Positions 53,312 to 60,259 of a DNA stretch of 60,259 nt are shown here, one piece after another. The notes below the pieces were generated by a model. It was given only the letters and a program-made list of their open reading frames with translations. It ran no database searches and was not told the origin of the DNA. A program made the position numbers and the translations under genes. Origin of the DNA: Alphaproteobacteria bacterium (GTDB lineage Bacteria; Pseudomonadota; Alphaproteobacteria; Rhizobiales; JAKIUO01); the NCBI GenBank assembly GCA_024280895.1, contig JAJRPI010000048.1:1-60259 (forward strand). Direction: 5' to 3'. Each line of letters starts with the position of its first letter. The stretch's first letter is position 1.

Positions 53312-53509
53312 ATGACCTCAATTGCAAGAGATCTCGTCTCCAGTTTCAAGCGGGCAACACGCCTTGCATTCTTGCGAAAAACGTCCCAGGCAGAACCAGA
53401 AATCAGCACAGGCGCGCTGATGACACTGGTTTTTCTCAACATAACAGCCTCCATTGGCTCTGAGATTTTGGACGCGGGGGGAATCTCTATTTCAACTCCT
53501 TTGGATTGA
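53312..53509 (+). pseudogene. N-terminal part of the C13 peptidase gene, split by a frameshift
   Basis: A 65-codon frame whose product (VSSFKRATRLAFLRKTSQAE, GALMTLVFLNITASIGSEIL, then DAGG) resembles the beginning of membrane-bound alphaproteobacterial C13 peptidases. The gene then continues in another frame. Over a run of six Gs at 53476-53481, reading with one more G joins DAGG to NLYFNSFGLNAHFASF of the next frame, which gives the expected family sequence. The lesion may be a sequencing error, a true mutation or a slippage site. Confidence 0.6.
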
Positions 53510-54834
53510 ATGCTCACTTTGCAAGTTTCGTGGTTGTTGTCATTTTAATTCTTGTGTTGGGATCAAAGTCTGGTCTCCCCTCTCCGCAACGCATTATCAC
53601 AGATATCGCATCACTGGAGATCTGGTTTTTCCTCCTCTTTGTGGGCCTCTTTTATGCGTCTCCTCCTCTGATTGAACGGTTTAATCTGCAACCTGCAGCC
53701 CATGAGATTGTACAAGAATTACCGCTTCTTATTCTTGGGATCTGGGGGCTCGTAGCTCTGTGGTGGACCGGGCGAACCTTATGGCGCGGGCATTTAAGGT
53801 TTCCCGGCTTGCACTTTGTATTTGTTGTTCTCGCCCCCATGTTTTTAGTGCCGCATCAAGCTGCCTTTAACGGCGACACAACAGATTGGACCCGCTACGA
53901 CATATGGTACTGGGGAGAAAAAGCCCGCCATGCCCTCTTCCCTCAAACTGCCAGCAATAAAAAACGCGCCCCGCGCATCGACGTGGAAGCCGCTTATTAT
54001 CGCCAGCCCGCCCTCGTCAAAAAAGCGCTCGACAAACTGAAATCTTCATCGACTACCACCCCCAATTTTTACTTTGTGGGGGCCGCACCAGATGCTTCCC
54101 AACTGGTCTTCAAGCGCGAAGTGCTGGCGGCGCAAAAAATGTTCGATAAGCGTTTTAATACGCGGAACCGCTCGCTGGTTCTTCTGAATAACCGCAAAAC
54201 CATCGACACCGTGCCTATGGCTAATGCCTCCAATCTTGCTCTGGCGCTTGAGGGGGTCGGCAAAAAAATGGATGTCGAAAAAGACGTGCTTATTTTGTTT
54301 ATCACCACTCATGGAGGCACCAGACAACTGTCGGTACGGTTTTCGCGTTTTTACCCAAATAATCTGAGCGCGCAACGGTTGGCCAACATCTTAAAAAAAT
54401 CTAAGATCAAGCACAAGGTCTTGATCATTTCTGCTTGCTATTCGGGCAGCTTTATTCCCGCTCTCAAAGATGAGAATACCTTGATCATGACAGCCTCTCA
54501 TGCGGAGCGATCCTCCTTTGGCTGCTCCAATGAACGAGACTGGACATATTTTGGCGATGCTTTGATCAATCGCGCCCTGCGGACAACGAAGTCCTTGCCA
54601 TATGCCTTCGCGGAGGCACGGGCGATGATCACCAAATGGGAAGCCAAAGCAGGCGTTGAGGCGTCAGAACCCCAGATCTTTGTTGGTGAGCTCATCGGCA
54701 CCAAACTGGACAGCCTGATCAGCGGACTGGATCAATTGGAGCACCAGGCGAAAGCTTCGCCAGATGGCAGCAATATCTCACCTCGCGACCAAAAACTGGT
54801 CCAAAATCAACACACCGCCCAACCGTTGGAATAG
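53506..54834 (+). CDS. Membrane-bound peptidase C13 (legumain-like) family protein, main part
   Basis: The bulk of a C13-family protein, 442 codons from a TTG, though the natural frame extends upstream to about 53464 and joins the preceding short frame by a -1 shift. Three or four membrane segments (FVVVVILILVLG, LEIWFFLLFVGLFYA, LPLLILGIWGLVALW, LHFVFVVLAPMFLV) precede a soluble domain with the catalytic His-Gly in ILFITTHGGTRQLSVRF and the catalytic Cys in HKVLIISACYSGSFIPALKD, followed by ITASHAERSSFGCSN-like residues. C13 members cleave after Asn or process GPI-type anchors in eukaryotes; the bacterial substrates are unknown. Confidence 0.8.
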   Translation: MNAHFASFVVVVILILVLGSKSGLPSPQRIITDIASLEIWFFLLFVGLFYASPPLIERFNLQPAAHEIVQELPLLILGIWGLVALWWTGRTLWRGHLRFPGLHFVFVVLAPMFLVPHQAAFNGDTTDWTRYDIWYWGEKARHALFPQTASNKKRAPRIDVEAAYYRQPALVKKALDKLKSSSTTTPNFYFVGAAPDASQLVFKREVLAAQKMFDKRFNTRNRSLVLLNNRKTIDTVPMANASNLALALEGVGKKMDVEKDVLILFITTHGGTRQLSVRFSRFYPNNLSAQRLANILKKSKIKHKVLIISACYSGSFIPALKDENTLIMTASHAERSSFGCSNERDWTYFGDALINRALRTTKSLPYAFAEARAMITKWEAKAGVEASEPQIFVGELIGTKLDSLISGLDQLEHQAKASPDGSNISPRDQKLVQNQHTAQPLE

Positions 54835-54852
54835 TGTCACCAGCTGACCAGC

Positions 54853-55782
54853 TCACCATTTGCGTGCCTGCTCTGGCGCTTTCATTTCTTCGAAAACCAT
54901 GTGGTTGAAATCGCCGAGCAATTTGGGCTGAGCAAGCTTGAAAGCGCGGGGATCACGGCGGTAATTCATGCGCCATAATTTGCCAGCCCAAGCCCAAAGA
55001 ATATCACCATTGTGATCAAGATCGCACCAGTCGACGCGGCCAATTTCCCAAATAGCTTTTCCCCATAAATTGGTAATGCAAGCTTCTTCAACATTCCAGC
55101 GCCCTTGACGTTCATGCGTATATTTGGAACTTAATTGCAGGCTCCAGCGGGACGGGCCACCCTTGTTTTGCGGGCGCTTGGCGAAGATGGTCGGCCGTTT
55201 TTTCACAAAACTATAAGGTTCGCGATATCCCACCATTTTGCTATGAGATCCCTTTTGGGCAAGGGTCCAACCATCGCGCAACATACGATAAGTTCGAATG
55301 GGATCATCTTCTCCGCAACCGGAATATTCACGAAGTGGCTTGACGCTCATCGGTAGACAAGCCTGCTCGCGCGCCATGTTTTTTGGACATTCTGGCGTCA
55401 TGCCATGATTGAGATAGATCGTGCGACCATTGTGCGAAAACAGACCACCGCCACCCCAGGTATCTCCCTTGGGCCACATAGCCAGCGCCGTAAAAAAAGG
55501 TGGCTTTGAAATCACGCTATAGGTGCTTATTTCCTTGGCGTAATTTGAGGCAAAATAAATGAAATAGCGACCATCTGGCGAGAGATCGCAGCGCCGCTCA
55601 TAGACCCGGTGTTTTAGCCATTGGCCGGGCGTGAAAAGATCATTACCGCGATCCCAACTGATCATGCGTACATGATTGCTCGGCCCTCGACGCAACAAAA
55701 CCGCCTTTCGAGAATTTGGCGCAAGCAAAGCGTATAGTCGAGCGGTGTTTTTCCATTGCGCTGTTGAGACAATCTTGGCCAA
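54853..55782 (-). CDS. Uncharacterised protein with beta-propeller-like composition
   Basis: A 309-residue soluble protein, rich in Trp and Tyr, with segments such as CDLSPDGRYFIYFASNYA and GGGLFSHNGRTIYLNHG that look like blades of a WD40-like or TolB-like propeller. No signal peptide is seen. Cysteines occur at several scattered positions. No named family recognised. It ends 18 bases from the C13 peptidase gene on the other strand and begins three bases after the stop of the GcvR-like gene, so it is probably co-transcribed with that gene. Confidence 0.65.
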   Translation of the reverse strand: MAKIVSTAQWKNTARLYALLAPNSRKAVLLRRGPSNHVRMISWDRGNDLFTPGQWLKHRVYERRCDLSPDGRYFIYFASNYAKEISTYSVISKPPFFTALAMWPKGDTWGGGGLFSHNGRTIYLNHGMTPECPKNMAREQACLPMSVKPLREYSGCGEDDPIRTYRMLRDGWTLAQKGSHSKMVGYREPYSFVKKRPTIFAKRPQNKGGPSRWSLQLSSKYTHERQGRWNVEEACITNLWGKAIWEIGRVDWCDLDHNGDILWAWAGKLWRMNYRRDPRAFKLAQPKLLGDFNHMVFEEMKAPEQARKW

Positions 55783-55785
55783 AAG

Positions 55786-56325
55786 CTACTTCCCTTTGAC
55801 CGAACACATTTTGACTTCAACCATTAAATCCGAGGCGAGGTCCTCAAGCTTTTCGCAAAGCTGATCCATCTCGAGACCGTCGGGCAAGACAATATCGGCT
55901 TCGGCACTAAACATGTGCTCGCCGGTCATGGAACCCGTGAAAATGTGAGTGCGCAACTCGTCTACATTGACCTTGTTTTCCGCCAGCACGCGCGAGACAT
56001 CACGTACGATACCCTTGTGATCCTGGCCGGTGACCTCGAAATAGGCCTTGCGCCCAGTGTCTCCTTGCGCCGAGAACGACGTAGCGCTGGTTTCGCGCAT
56101 GGATATAGAGATGCCATCTTCATGCAGAGCTTCCAGCGCTTTTTCCAGCCCTGGCGCTTTGTCCTCATCAAGAGTTATGCGAAGGATACCTGCGAACTCT
56201 CCACCAAGCCGCGACATGGCACTGTCCACCCAGTTGCCTTCATAGCTTGCCACCACATCAGCTAAAAGCTCAACAATACCCGGGCGGTCTTTTGCCATTA
56301 TGGTCAAGACCAGTTCCATCTGCAT
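55786..56325 (-). CDS. GcvR-like protein with two ACT domains
   Basis: A 179-residue protein made of two ACT domains: VLTIMAKDRPGIVELLADVV at the start and YFEVTGQDHKGIVRDVSRVL in the second half, with DELRTHIFTGSMTGEHMFSA. This is the architecture of GcvR, the co-repressor that binds glycine and restrains GcvA in control of the glycine cleavage system. No GcvA gene is present here, so the partner is unknown. AGGAAG precedes the start closely. The next gene begins after three bases. Confidence 0.83.
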   Translation of the reverse strand: MQMELVLTIMAKDRPGIVELLADVVASYEGNWVDSAMSRLGGEFAGILRITLDEDKAPGLEKALEALHEDGISISMRETSATSFSAQGDTGRKAYFEVTGQDHKGIVRDVSRVLAENKVNVDELRTHIFTGSMTGEHMFSAEADIVLPDGLEMDQLCEKLEDLASDLMVEVKMCSVKGK

Positions 56326-56479
56326 GGGGTTCTTCCTCTCTCAAATGATCATTTGAGAGCAATCTAGCATCTTTGCAACAAGGGGAAAAGTCACATATTT
56401 GGGGGGTTTCGTGAGTGGCGAGGCGCGCGAGCACTAAAGATCGATTGTGAGCGGTCTTCGATCAAACTTACGCAAAAGG

Positions 56480-57889
56480 CTAACGCTTTTTATTTTGCCA
56501 GCTCAGGAAATCAGCGAACAGTTTTTCGCTATTGTCTCCATTACTTGCTGTCCCGCGCGTCGCCATAAACTGCTTGAAATTAGCCATCAGATCTTCACGG
56601 CGTTTCATTGCATCATCTGGTATTTGAGCTGTACTCACCGCATTCTCGCGCTTGACGATGGCCGTTTTCGCATCGATCCATTGCTGGGCTGGCGCAAATC
56701 TCGTCATGCCGGGAACAGTGGCGCGCAAATTGACCTCGGCCCATTTTGGATGCAGGTTGTGCGAGCTGCGCAACTTGGCGAAATGCTCAAAAAAGGTCTT
56801 GGTGAATTTTGACAAACGGCGATAACGATCTGAATTGGGCTTCCAGTTGAACACCGCAAGGATCGTGCGCGTAGCAATCGTTGGCACGACTTGGCCCTTT
56901 GCGATCAGCTCTGGATAATCCTCATGGGTCAGCTGGGTTGGCAGGTGCGAACCGATGAATGAGGGATCATAATTGATCGGCAATAATCTGATGCCGGGGA
57001 ATATGCTTTTCAACCGCAATACGTTGCGAATGGGCTTGCCGGTGACGCGCATCATGGCATCAAGACGCCCTTCTTTGAGCGCCAACGCTCCGTCGCCTTC
57101 CGAAATACGAATGGTTTTCGATGGCTTTATGCCAAGTTTTTCAAACAGGATCGAAGCGGTGACTTGTGCGCTGGAATTATTAAAACCAACCCGCTTCCCG
57201 TTCAATTCAATCAATGAGGAAACATTGTTGCCCGCATATAGATGCACTTCTTCGTTAAACAGTTTGGTAATGTAATGGATGCGCTTGTCGAGGCGTTCAT
57301 AGAGCGGCTTGCCCATAAAATAATTGAGTACATCGGTGTTTACAATGGCCATATCGACACCGCGCAGATAAAGAAGATCGCGTACATTGGTACCCGCGCC
57401 GCCGCCAAGAACGGGCAGCACCCGCAGGCCGTTTTTCTCCCCCGCCGCTTTGATCATATCCTTGATGTCAGCGCCAAATGCCGTATAAGCGCCGGTCGTG
57501 CAACAGCCAGACATGAGGGTGACGGTATTTTGATTGAGGGTCGTTTTGTAGGCCACTTGTGAGCGCGGAATTTTCGCGCCACCGGGCGCCCTTCGAAGGG
57601 CATTGGCGCGCCGCGCCGCTCGTGCTCTTTTGTTGGCTCTTGCTGTGCGCGCTTTTCTTAAAGCTTTAGCCTTTGCGGCTCTTTTGATCTTTTGAGCTTT
57701 GCTGAGTTTTTTAGATTTCTTGGAGGCTTTTTGCGCCTGCGCTGGCGTCACAAAAACCGTGCTGGAAAGCACCGCGCTGGCCAGAAAAGCCATGCTCAAA
57801 ACGACAACTGACAGGCCCGCCCGAGGTCTGACCAAGGGAGCCTCATGCCCCATTTTAGACCATTTACCAAACAAATTCACTTCAAACAT
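56480..57889 (-). CDS. TAXI-family TRAP transporter solute-binding protein with basic linker
   Basis: A 469-residue protein; the ATG at 57889 is chosen because AGGGA lies nine bases upstream (57916 and 57853 are alternatives). A signal sequence (LSVVVLSMAFLASAVLSSTV, then VTPAQA) is followed by an unusual Lys/Ala/Arg-rich stretch of about 60 residues. The binding domain begins TVTLMSGCCTTGAYTAFGAD and has RGVDMAIVNTDVLNYFMGKP, LIELNGKRVGFNNSSAQVTA and LKEGRLDAMMRVTGKPIRNV, as in TAXI proteins. No DctQM-type fused permease is adjacent, so it is an orphan receptor here. Confidence 0.85.
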   Translation of the reverse strand: MFEVNLFGKWSKMGHEAPLVRPRAGLSVVVLSMAFLASAVLSSTVFVTPAQAQKASKKSKKLSKAQKIKRAAKAKALRKARTARANKRARAARRANALRRAPGGAKIPRSQVAYKTTLNQNTVTLMSGCCTTGAYTAFGADIKDMIKAAGEKNGLRVLPVLGGGAGTNVRDLLYLRGVDMAIVNTDVLNYFMGKPLYERLDKRIHYITKLFNEEVHLYAGNNVSSLIELNGKRVGFNNSSAQVTASILFEKLGIKPSKTIRISEGDGALALKEGRLDAMMRVTGKPIRNVLRLKSIFPGIRLLPINYDPSFIGSHLPTQLTHEDYPELIAKGQVVPTIATRTILAVFNWKPNSDRYRRLSKFTKTFFEHFAKLRSSHNLHPKWAEVNLRATVPGMTRFAPAQQWIDAKTAIVKRENAVSTAQIPDDAMKRREDLMANFKQFMATRGTASNGDNSEKLFADFLSWQNKKR

Positions 57890-58335
57890 GCTCAAATTCC
57901 CTACACTCAACAACAACTCAATCCAGTCTCAAAATATAGCGCCAGCGCCCCTGCTTAGGTCTTGTCGCCAACAAAGCACCGATCGCAAAGCAGTACAAAC
58001 ACTTGGGGCCATGTGTGGGATGTTACAAGTTCTGTGCCAGATGGGAGATAGGCATCATCGATGTTCGAGCGCTATATGGTCGAACCACCGATGGCGCTCG
58101 ATCAAGGGCCTCGTTTTGACAATTCCCCAAAACCAAATTTGCAGCAATGCAATTAAACCGCATCCCGCAGTGAAATGACGTTTCCAAATGATCCCCCGCA
58201 TAACAATATATTAAGGATCACGGACGAAAACTGGCTTGTAGGAGATCAATTTTCCACGAAATAACAAGTCATTAAATCAATCTGGGCACACTTGCCTATA
58301 TGATCGCTGAACAGTAAATTGCGTATGGGAGACAA
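57890..58335. other. 446-base intergenic region
   Basis: No supportable gene. Frames of 60-100 codons overlap without ribosome sites. It separates the TAXI gene promoter from a possible small gene at 58336. Confidence 0.45.
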
Positions 58336-58581
58336 ATGATGGTTGCAACAAATATGAACAAGACAATAAAGCGTCTTGAAACTCTTTTTGAGGGACAAGC
58401 CGACGCGGTTGGCTCTGGCAAGGCGGACTTGTCCAACTTGCGAAATCTGCTTGAGAATTCTGAGCATGTGCCTCTGGATGTCTGTTTTGCCCAGCTGAAA
58501 GCAGATTTGAGCGGCGATAAAAGCCCCCGGCATGACAATGGTAAAAGCGAAGAACGTCTCCAACGAATAATGAACCGCTAA
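58336..58581 (+). CDS. Possible small protein
   Basis: An 81-residue frame starting with ATG ATG, preceded by GGGAGA at good distance, which favours translation. The product (NMNKTIKRLETLFEGQADAV, DLSNLRNLLENSEHVPLDVC) is hydrophilic and helical-looking, with one Cys. I recognise no family. Larger open frames on the opposite strand run through the palindromes at 58745-58810 and are less likely to be genes. Confidence 0.45.
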   Translation: MMVATNMNKTIKRLETLFEGQADAVGSGKADLSNLRNLLENSEHVPLDVCFAQLKADLSGDKSPRHDNGKSEERLQRIMNR

Positions 58582-58744
58582 GGCAATTTTCCCCACATTT
58601 CTTTTGCTGCCTTGATCGCAGCAACCAATATGCCCTCGTCGAGATCCTTGCGTTCTTAAACAATAGCGAAACTGTGGGCCTGTTGGAAGATTTCGATGTT
58701 GCAAGGGGCAGCTTGTTCCCGCGCGCCTGGTGACACGACTTGCA

Positions 58745-58775
58745 TCGGCCCTCAATGAGCGGCATTGAGGGCCGA
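58745..58775. repeat. Perfect 13-bp inverted repeat
   Basis: TCGGCCCTCAATG at 58745-58757 pairs perfectly with CATTGAGGGCCGA at 58763-58775 over the five-base loop AGCGG. No T-run follows; the REP-like hairpin begins 12 bases later. Confidence 0.75.
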
Positions 58776-58786
58776 AGAAGCATACC

Positions 58787-58811
58787 GTCATCCCGGCAGA
58801 GGCCGGGATCC
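58787..58811. repeat. REP-like palindrome
   Basis: GTCATCCCGGC followed by GAG-type loop and GCCGGGATCC forms a stable hairpin (ATCCCGGC at 58790-58797 with GCCGGGAT at 58802-58809). Its GTCATCCC core matches both ends of the element at 17653-17780, indicating one repeat family. Confidence 0.7.
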
Positions 58812-59061
58812 GGTCGACCCTCCCCTTGCAAATTACAAGCAAAATTCAAGAACGCACCCCAGCCCCCTCGCCCCACGACCCGACCAATTTTGTGGCACCA
58901 CTACTGGCGACCGGCTGGAGCTGGAATGGTGTTTTGTGGAGCGGATCTAGTATCGAGAAAAAAGAACGCTATGGGTGCATTTTTTATTGCGCACAACTAG
59001 ATCAATGATTAAGGTTCGTCCGTGGGCGTTATTTTTAAGTTGTATTGGGAGATAGTTGCGA

Positions 59062-59850
59062 GTGAGTGAACATACAACTTTGGAGCTAATGCAAGCCCTC
59101 TATGAAGTATTACCGGCAAATCAACAGCCAATCATCAACCCCAAAGCCCGGGCACTACTATCAAGAATCGTCGGCATCAACATATCCAAAGAAAGATACA
59201 ACGAAATCAGATCTGGCCTAATCGATCAGGGCCTGATCGAGATCGGAATGGGACACGGAGGGACGATAGCCCGCACAAAAGAAATACCTCCAGATAGTAT
59301 TGCCACACCAATTCAAATAACTTCAGAAATTAATCTGTACAAACCTACAATCGAATATATCGAGAAAGTTTTTCGAGATCACGAAGGGCTAATCGAAGAG
59401 AATTTTATTATAGAAGATACTTCTGCGGGAGGACCAGCCACAGGAAAATGGGAACGCCCCGACATCACACTGATCTCCAGCCGCTATTACAAATACACAA
59501 ATCACCGGTCGATTGATATTTACAGCTTCGAAGTCAAAACACAAAGCAGCTGTGATCTAACAGCAGTCTATGAGGCCCATGAACAAGGATTGCAAACCCA
59601 CTATCCCTATGTTGTCTGGAGCATTCCTATTGGAGAACCTGATAAAACAAAACTCACACAAATGATTGATTCAGCCCAGCGAAATGAAGTCGGGCTCATA
59701 TTACTCCGAAACAGGCTGGAGGATTCAGAAATAATCGTATCAGCAACCCGCAGAAATCCAAAACATGCAACTATAGAACGGTTTATTGAAGATCGAATAA
59801 GCTCAGCAAGTCAGCAGGCTATTGCTGACTGGCATAAGGGAGAAAATTAA
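59062..59850 (+). CDS. Winged-helix plus PD-(D/E)XK nuclease-like protein
   Basis: About 262 residues from a GTG at 59062 with GGGAG ten bases upstream (a TTG at 59056 is an alternative). The N-terminal 75 residues look like a winged helix (ARALLSRIVGINISKERYNE, IRSGLIDQGLIEIGMGHGGT). The middle shows KWERPDITLISSRYY and, about 22 residues later, DIYSFEVKTQSSCDLTAVYE, matching the PD...(D/E)XK spacing of restriction-like nucleases, with Asp134, Glu157 and Lys159 as likely catalytic residues. The codon choice (AGA, ATA, AAA) and AT content differ from the backbone. It overlaps the downstream parA by one base, so the two are likely made together. Confidence 0.65.
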   Translation: MSEHTTLELMQALYEVLPANQQPIINPKARALLSRIVGINISKERYNEIRSGLIDQGLIEIGMGHGGTIARTKEIPPDSIATPIQITSEINLYKPTIEYIEKVFRDHEGLIEENFIIEDTSAGGPATGKWERPDITLISSRYYKYTNHRSIDIYSFEVKTQSSCDLTAVYEAHEQGLQTHYPYVVWSIPIGEPDKTKLTQMIDSAQRNEVGLILLRNRLEDSEIIVSATRRNPKHATIERFIEDRISSASQQAIADWHKGEN

Positions 59851-60233
59851 TGGGGCGCGTTGTTGCCATCATGAACACAAAAGGCGGTGTTGGGAAATCA
59901 ACAACCGTCATGATGCTAGCCGAATATTTGGCAAGCAAGAAAGATATAAAAATATTGATTATTGATGCCGATTCACAGGCCAGCATTAGCAATATGCTGA
60001 TTTCCACCAAGGAATACAAAGAGCTCGAACAAAATGAAAAAACATTATTCGAATACATGATGATTTCCATTGCCAATAGGAAAGGGGATAAATTAGACAA
60101 CTATATTAAGCATGCAGCTTCTGATGTAATGGGTGCCCAATCGATCAGTCTGCTTCCAAGCAAAATAGAACTCTCCCTTCTGGAAAGAGAAGTAATGCTT
60201 GCACCTACTGATTTTATGAAAGCCGTGCGCTAA
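59850..60233 (+). CDS. ParA/Soj-type ATPase with early in-frame stop
   Basis: 127 codons starting at the ATG that overlaps the preceding stop (TAATG). The deviant Walker A motif KGGVGKST at residues 11-18, in VVAIMNTKGGVGKSTTVMML, and the Walker A'-like ILIIDADSQASISNMLIS define a ParA-family ATPase, normally 200-300 residues long. After KAVR there is a TAA; the same frame then continues AVNDLIKS to the window edge, which reads like the natural continuation. So the gene is either interrupted by a nonsense change (a pseudogene) or affected by a base error. Role of a ParA beside a nuclease-like protein: unknown. Confidence 0.7.
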   Translation: MGRVVAIMNTKGGVGKSTTVMMLAEYLASKKDIKILIIDADSQASISNMLISTKEYKELEQNEKTLFEYMMISIANRKGDKLDNYIKHAASDVMGAQSISLLPSKIELSLLEREVMLAPTDFMKAVR

Positions 60234-60259
60234 GCCGTAAATGATCTTATTAAAAGTGC

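Follow-up and report, generated by a model that had tools for sequence, protein, structure and literature searches.

What does a winged-helix protein with a restriction-like nuclease fold do in an operon with a ParA ATPase? The question is raised by the right-hand end of the window, by which we mean the whole stretch of 60,259 nucleotides analysed here, from an alphaproteobacterium of the order Rhizobiales (assembly GCA_024280895.1, contig JAJRPI010000048.1). The initial annotation had described two overlapping genes there as a possible two-gene system. The features concerned are the following.

58336..58581, plus strand: small flanking ORF of 81 aa at the left border of the accessory segment, outside the system
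58940..59055, plus strand: leader/promoter region of the cassette, conserved in the same-genus genome G290
59062..59850, plus strand: winged-helix PD-(D/E)XK nuclease-like gene, 262 aa; GTG start at 59062, with TTG at 59056 possible; TAA at 59848-59850
59850..60259, plus strand: 5' part of parA; ATG at 59850, in-frame TAA at 60231-60233; continues on contig C58 to a stop at L003:6507-6509, minus strand
L003:6090-6494, minus strand: small-partner gene, 135 aa, 12 nt after parA on contig C58

The window ends inside parA, where contig C56, one of the 96 contigs of the assembly, stops, and its last 141 bases (60119-60259) are the exact start of the minus strand of contig C58. The remainder of parA, in the same frame, the third small gene and recR all lie on C58, and the adjacency of the two contigs is supported by G290, in which both flanks are on a single contig. 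The exact overlap is probably a k-mer graph break. Read across the junction, the gene order is the 81-aa ORF, 480 bases, the nuclease gene, parA, 12 nt, the 135-aa ORF and a convergent recR. The one-base overlap reported initially is there, the nuclease stop (TAA 59848-59850) and the parA start (ATG 59850) sharing a base in TAATG, but the system has three genes rather than two, since a small gene follows parA. A parB gene just past the window edge had been named as a possible explanation of the locus; the sequence to the right excludes it, as the small-protein gene and then recR come next on C58. An inverted repeat of 13 nt, perfect and with a 5-nt loop, lies at 58745-58775, between the 81-aa ORF and the cassette. 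Further left, a 442-aa ORF at 53506-54834 may encode a caspase/C13-like peptidase, as judged by eye.

The parA reading frame is not intact in this assembly. The in-frame TAA falls within the 141-base stretch common to C56 and C58, and the frame stays open for 150 codons after it. The exact k-mer overlap at this TAA points to branching of the assembly graph, so that a strain mixture or an assembly fault may be responsible; the interruption in the assembled genome also means that this copy may be inactive.

The segment differs in composition from its surroundings. The nuclease gene has a GC content of 0.433 and a GC3 of 0.389, the lowest GC among the 36 window ORFs that reach 200 aa, which, with the nuclease included, average 0.509 +/- 0.027 for GC and 0.557 +/- 0.049 for GC3; the two pieces of parA stand at 0.404 and 0.412, the small gene at 0.398 and recR at 0.564. 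In the same-genus genome G291 less than 0.9 kb separates recR from the neighbouring transporter gene, leaving no room for the cassette, and an ORF that by eye resembles the 81-aa one adjoins recR. No KGGV frame occurs in the stretches fetched around recR in G289 and G292. The earlier description of AT-rich DNA with deviating codon use at an accessory border is upheld by these values and by the cassette-free site of G291, and, on the evidence of sequence, the cassette segment is accessory.

The first gene had been read as encoding a winged helix joined to a PD-(D/E)XK nuclease domain, and structure prediction agrees. The AlphaFold2 model, made with 25 sequences, has a mean pLDDT of 90.6, with a winged helix at about residues 1-73 and a nuclease core at about 89-215. 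The modelled core runs alpha-beta-beta-beta-alpha-beta (helix 89-107, strands 114-119, 135-143 and 148-159, helix 166-175, strand 181-187) and is a complete PD-(D/E)XK core with the active-site motif E89 ... PD134 ... E157-x-K159; the topology, the acidic residue, the PD and the (D/E)xK by which the superfamily is recognised are thus all predicted to be present. The residues E89, P133, D134, E157, K159 and G211 do not vary among the 29 aligned proteins, a set made up of the 27 members of alignment A6 plus L150 and L151, with the more distant profile matches L025-L032 left out, and one in which the PD stretch served as one of the two search patterns of the species-collection scan, L120, L129, L150 and L151 having been found by profiles instead. 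The best structural match of the C-terminal part is the type IIS enzyme PaqCI (8em1; Z 11.5, rmsd 3.4, 145 aligned), followed by SPO1766 (3dnx; Z 10.1, rmsd 3.6, 133 aligned), both at 9-13% identity to this domain, so that the likeness is in fold only; the N-terminal part resembles many winged helices. No Pfam, NCBIfam, PADLOC or PHROGs model matches the nuclease above cut-off, and a PDB sequence search with it gave nothing useful. The 25-row nuclease set gives weak matches in Pfam, PADLOC and NCBIfam, the best being to Rrf2-type regulators in two members (0.0001 in Pfam, 5e-5 in NCBIfam), presumably on account of the winged helix.

The downstream gene is parA, as first annotated: its product carries the deviant Walker A motif KGGVGKST, and Pfam AAA_31 is matched on both sides of the internal TAA (1.9e-18 before, 4.9e-11 after), a deviant Walker A with an AAA_31/CbiA domain being the mark of the ParA/MinD family. 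Weak relatives of this ParA occur in 14 phage records. ParA ATPases bind DNA as ATP dimers, and the function they are chiefly known for is positioning rather than the gating of nucleases. The ParA-type ATPases treated in excerpts of PMC10241942 are controlled by very diverse partner proteins, and MinD/ParA-like domains, predicted to be inactive, are also listed as effectors in other conflict systems in part of PMC7159879.

Our analysis of the 135-aa protein gave no Pfam or NCBIfam match above the curated cut-offs, and in these two libraries no match to the ParB family that follows parA in ParABS loci. Below the cut-offs stand two putative addiction-module components, PF09720 at 0.0026 and TIGR02574 at 0.062, which lean towards a toxin-antitoxin interpretation of the locus. 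The model is helical (pLDDT 73.5), its best structural match has a Z of 5.8 and is possibly meaningless, and the helical C-terminus may, by eye, be SAP/HeH-like. The HEPN motif is RxxxxH, and the small protein lacks it because it has no histidine at all. No positively charged N-terminus is common to all of the 16 small proteins compared. ParA relatives on three plasmids (Methylocystis, Rhizobium and Caballeronia) are likewise followed by a gene for a small protein, 20-23% identical to the third gene of the window cassette.

Wider searches gave no sign that nuclease and ParA belong together. With the single nuclease protein as query, nothing beyond the window matched in 289 same-class and 101 related genomes; a three-row nuclease profile, run against 398 genomes from the phylum, matched 10, that of the window among them, and a pattern scan of the species collection yielded 20 nuclease loci from 67 pattern matches. 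None of 32 other nuclease loci (20 from the species collection, 10 other places of the three-row profile and 2 plasmids; 31 of them with more than 1 kb of DNA downstream) has a ParA partner, L025 included, a partial nuclease frame in a genome (G313) of the same order as the window. At one of them, L048, an Mrp-like ATPase gene follows on the same strand after a 76-nt gap (L048:5061-6783; ParA-profile match 9e-11); we take it to be a housekeeping neighbour, yet it weighs against a clean zero.

Among 249 genomes of the window's order the outcome is different. A profile of the window-type small protein (A5) matches 28 of them at E <=0.01, the window's own included, and all 16 of the best places (E <=1e-6: 14 fetched, the window and L035, with 14 weaker places left out) have a ParA frame a short way upstream, no more than about 360 nt off. 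Besides the window, two of these 16 have the nuclease directly upstream of parA, namely L120 (genome G840) and L129 (G801), the latter with a nuclease domain alone, of 192 aa; the nuclease is absent from the other 13, and the pair of ParA and small protein is the commoner one. The 25-row nuclease profile, at E <=1e-6, finds 10 places in 8 of the 249 genomes (the window's own included). Four are winged helices alone and six cover nuclease-core positions; five of these six are nuclease-parA-small triples, at the window, L120, L129, L150 (G840) and L151 (G801), and the sixth, in G313, is a partial frame without ParA. Triples thus occur in 3 of 249 genomes, two of which have two divergent copies each. 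The nuclease gene overlaps parA by 1 nt in the window, 13 in L120, 4 in L129 and 4 in L151, and a gap of 2 nt separates them in L150, with the start codon chosen in three cases (the ATG nearest Walker A for L120 and L151, TTG for L150). Neither the A4 nor the A9 profile matches the small protein of L150 or that of L151, so that proteins of more than one sequence family occupy the third position. The supposition that nuclease homologues are never paired with ParA, which the 32 loci had suggested, is overturned by these triples. The recurrence that the initial annotation looked for therefore exists at five of six nuclease-core places within the order and at none of the 32 loci from the wider searches; nuclease, parA and small gene are a real, rare and recurrent three-gene unit, with a broken parA frame in the assembled window genome.

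Trees of the two main components give different pictures. Among 29 nucleases, those of the five triples are set apart by a single branch of the tree (94/98; none of 500 shuffles reached so low a value). The sample is narrow, one order and two families supplying all five, and the branching within the group is uncertain, its terminal branches being long and two of them coming together. The tree of 31 ParAs does not unite the five nuclease-adjacent sequences (3 changes; a joint clade in 0% of bootstrap trees), which fall among ParAs of the same small-protein type, so that nuclease and ParA have not simply shared one descent.

The site itself appears to host exchangeable cassettes. G290 aligns with window positions 53634-59052 at 81.8% and, at 88.7%, with C58 from its position 997 onwards; between the aligned flanks G290 holds a different cassette of 1.7 kb, encoding a ParA with a hydrophobic and coiled N-terminal segment (by eye) and a 157-aa protein. 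The leader DNA just ahead of the start codon is common to both cassettes. A relative of the G290 cassette lies on the same side of recR in G316, of another family, and between one and three ParA genes stand at recR in genus g256; recR-side cassettes are found in 10 loci of three families (the window, L064, L068, L121, L122, L123, L125, L126, L127 and L130). A profile of the G290-type small protein (A4-type) matches 16 of 249 genomes at E <=0.01, and an adjacent ParA frame, at a gap of up to about 360 nt, accompanies 14 of 16 A4-type places examined (2 partial or weak places left out), none being found at L131 and L136. By eye, the ParA N-termini are fused to HTH-like domains in L007, L008 and L117, and are hydrophobic or coiled in L064, L121, L123, L125 and L126. 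In g256 two different ParA-small cassettes adjoin at recR (L121, L123, L125, L126), with the two small genes convergent in L125 and L126 and in tandem in L123, and with three ParA genes in L121. The ParA-small cassette of L007, a Methylocystis plasmid (1-2111), lies beside multiubiquitin, E2/UBC, ThiF and Fic genes. The interchangeable recR-side cassettes (nuclease, membrane and plain) offer a natural comparison for the role of the ParA-small core.

The winged helix supplies the link to restriction-modification. The four places that match it alone (L152, L153, L154 and L155, in G861, G866, G771 and G748) are N-termini of larger proteins, two of them fused to HsdM domains (PF12161 and PF02384) and two, of 1074 and 1079 aa, to a PF01555 (N6_N4) DNA methylase. 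A distant nuclease relative from the profile search, L027, follows hsdR, with no ParA, and in this resembles the HrgA/COG2958-type genes of type I restriction-modification operons, a name that found no support for the nuclease relatives in library and literature searches. Together these cases indicate that the same DNA-reading domain serves restriction-modification proteins, and it is mainly for this reason that we prefer a restriction-type role; the sharing with HsdM and other methylases is also a lead to what is recognised.

Database scans give the triple no established place. In PADLOC-DB 2.0.0 the window nuclease and small protein have no match and no system model fits; the window ParA parts match weakly around Walker A (at best 6.8e-7, in a 48-residue stretch, with the candidate PDC-M28B), the proteins of three triples give two matches in the ParA Walker A region and otherwise none (the non-nuclease proteins of L129 left out), and the 25 nuclease relatives give one, at 0.027. 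Neighbours of the triples, read by eye, include no identified defence gene. With four of the five triple nucleases as queries, 72,556 plasmid records contain no triple, which counts against a plasmid-maintenance role, and two orphan nuclease relatives without ParA. A phage tblastn with the nuclease found no match, and of 54 and 4 pattern matches in viral contigs none was confirmed. Repeats near the operon are scattered and short (a 14-nt unit in no more than 3 copies, or a 29-nt unit in 2 copies at 72%) and form no iteron-like array, though a repeat-free site may still exist. We recognised no description of a PD-(D/E)XK-ParA-small operon in the parts of the open-licence literature covered, which does not show that none exists.

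We propose, with a confidence a little short of even, that the triple is an ATP-gated restriction or conflict module, a PD-(D/E)XK counterpart of the predicted HEPN-ParA dyads. The winged-helix nuclease would be the DNA-cutting effector, its winged helix reading sequence or modification state; the ParA-type ATPase, as a DNA-bound ATP dimer, would hold, load or release the nuclease; and the small partner would control the ATP cycle of ParA or tie it to its target, as ParB- and McdB-type partners do. Foreign or wrongly modified DNA that enters or replicates might shift the state of ParA, upon which the nuclease would cut. What the analysis establishes is the order of the genes and its recurrence, the predicted fold, the conservation of the catalytic residues and the sharing of the winged helix with DNA methylases; DNA cutting, gating by ParA, the role of the small partner and the trigger are what we infer. 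The proposal is favoured by the fold and catalytic motif, the tight gene coupling (overlap or 2 nt in five of five triples), the single nuclease clade despite deep divergence, the winged-helix-methylase fusions, the position of L027 after hsdR, the patchy distribution and the swapped cassette of G290; it is weakened by the lack of any fitting PADLOC model, the lack of a defence gene identified by eye beside the triples, the customary positioning role of ParA, the 32 nuclease loci without ParA, the 13 of 16 ParA-small places without nuclease, the scattered ParAs and the interrupted parA. Somewhat doubtful, and offered tentatively, is its extension to a new class of DNA restriction: a ParA-type ATPase, its ATP cycle controlled by a small partner, would gate a winged-helix PD-(D/E)XK nuclease on DNA, as part of a wider exchangeable ParA-small family (nuclease-, HTH- or membrane-equipped) swapped at one recR-side chromosomal site. 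A recurrent ParA operon with a nuclease that has its full set of catalytic residues suggests that ParA, studied as a positioning engine, may also control DNA cutting.

Other explanations share part of this evidence. The ParA-small pair is the widespread part, present in 16 of 16 best A5-type and 14 of 16 examined A4-type places, and the ParAs of related cassettes have an HTH-like domain joined on at the equivalent position (L007, L008, L117) or, in others, hydrophobic or coiled N-termini; ParA and the small protein might therefore position something on the nucleoid, with the protein of winged-helix and nuclease fold as DNA-binding adaptor or operon regulator rather than cutter. A pure adaptor would not need the catalytic E, D, E and K that are kept in 29 of 29 proteins, and leader DNA shared by two different cassettes is not a cassette-specific centromere. 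Partition becomes less likely still because there is no ParB, no iteron-like array by the operon, a chromosomal site beside recR and no triple on plasmids (four of five nucleases searched), and we regard such a positioning cassette as unlikely.

An addiction device, with the nuclease as a toxin acting on the host's own chromosome and with ParA, together with the small protein, as antitoxin, draws on the HEPN gene beside a ParA/Soj gene that part of PMC3710099 reads as toxin and antitoxin, on the small protein's addiction-module matches, both below curated cut-offs, on the overlapping genes and on the swapping of cassettes at one site. The presumed toxin gene nevertheless comes first, a third gene is present in five of five triples, 32 nuclease relatives are tolerated by cells without such an antitoxin, and HEPN is an RNase fold in that source as against the PD-(D/E)XK fold here; we consider this device improbable. 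A mere meeting of accessory genes at an insertion hotspot, with nuclease and ParA functionally unrelated, would agree with the 0 of 32 nuclease loci and with the 3 changes in the ParA tree, but five loci share order and orientation, with junctions that overlap or lie 2 nt apart and with nucleases of one clade. Coincidence is thus very improbable, and largely refuted by the recurrence of the triples.

The restriction or conflict module that we prefer can be set beside three known arrangements. ParAB and McdAB, as presented in excerpts of PMC10241942, likewise pair the gene of a ParA-type ATPase with a downstream one whose product is small and poorly conserved; the cassette differs in that its small protein has no ParB match, that the 16 small proteins have no common positive N-terminus and that a nuclease gene leads the operon. 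The winged-helix fusion endonucleases of type IV restriction (PMC11037411) also combine winged helix and PD-(D/E)XK in a single protein, and the part of that source concerned with their winged helices has them read adenine methylation. Their order is PD-(D/E)XK-wH, whereas the nuclease here has its winged helix at the N-terminus and parA as the next gene; the term ParA is absent from the main text of PMC11037411. The dyads of HEPN (MAE_18760 family) and ParA/Soj, as given in part of PMC3710099, share with the cassette a nuclease-superfamily gene in an operon with a ParA/Soj ATPase gene and were proposed there to be toxin and antitoxin. HEPN is an all-helical RNase fold, and in place of a HEPN partner the cassette has an upstream protein with a predicted PD-(D/E)XK fold behind a winged helix, and a third small gene besides; among the published ideas that we found, the HEPN-ParA dyad is the nearest.
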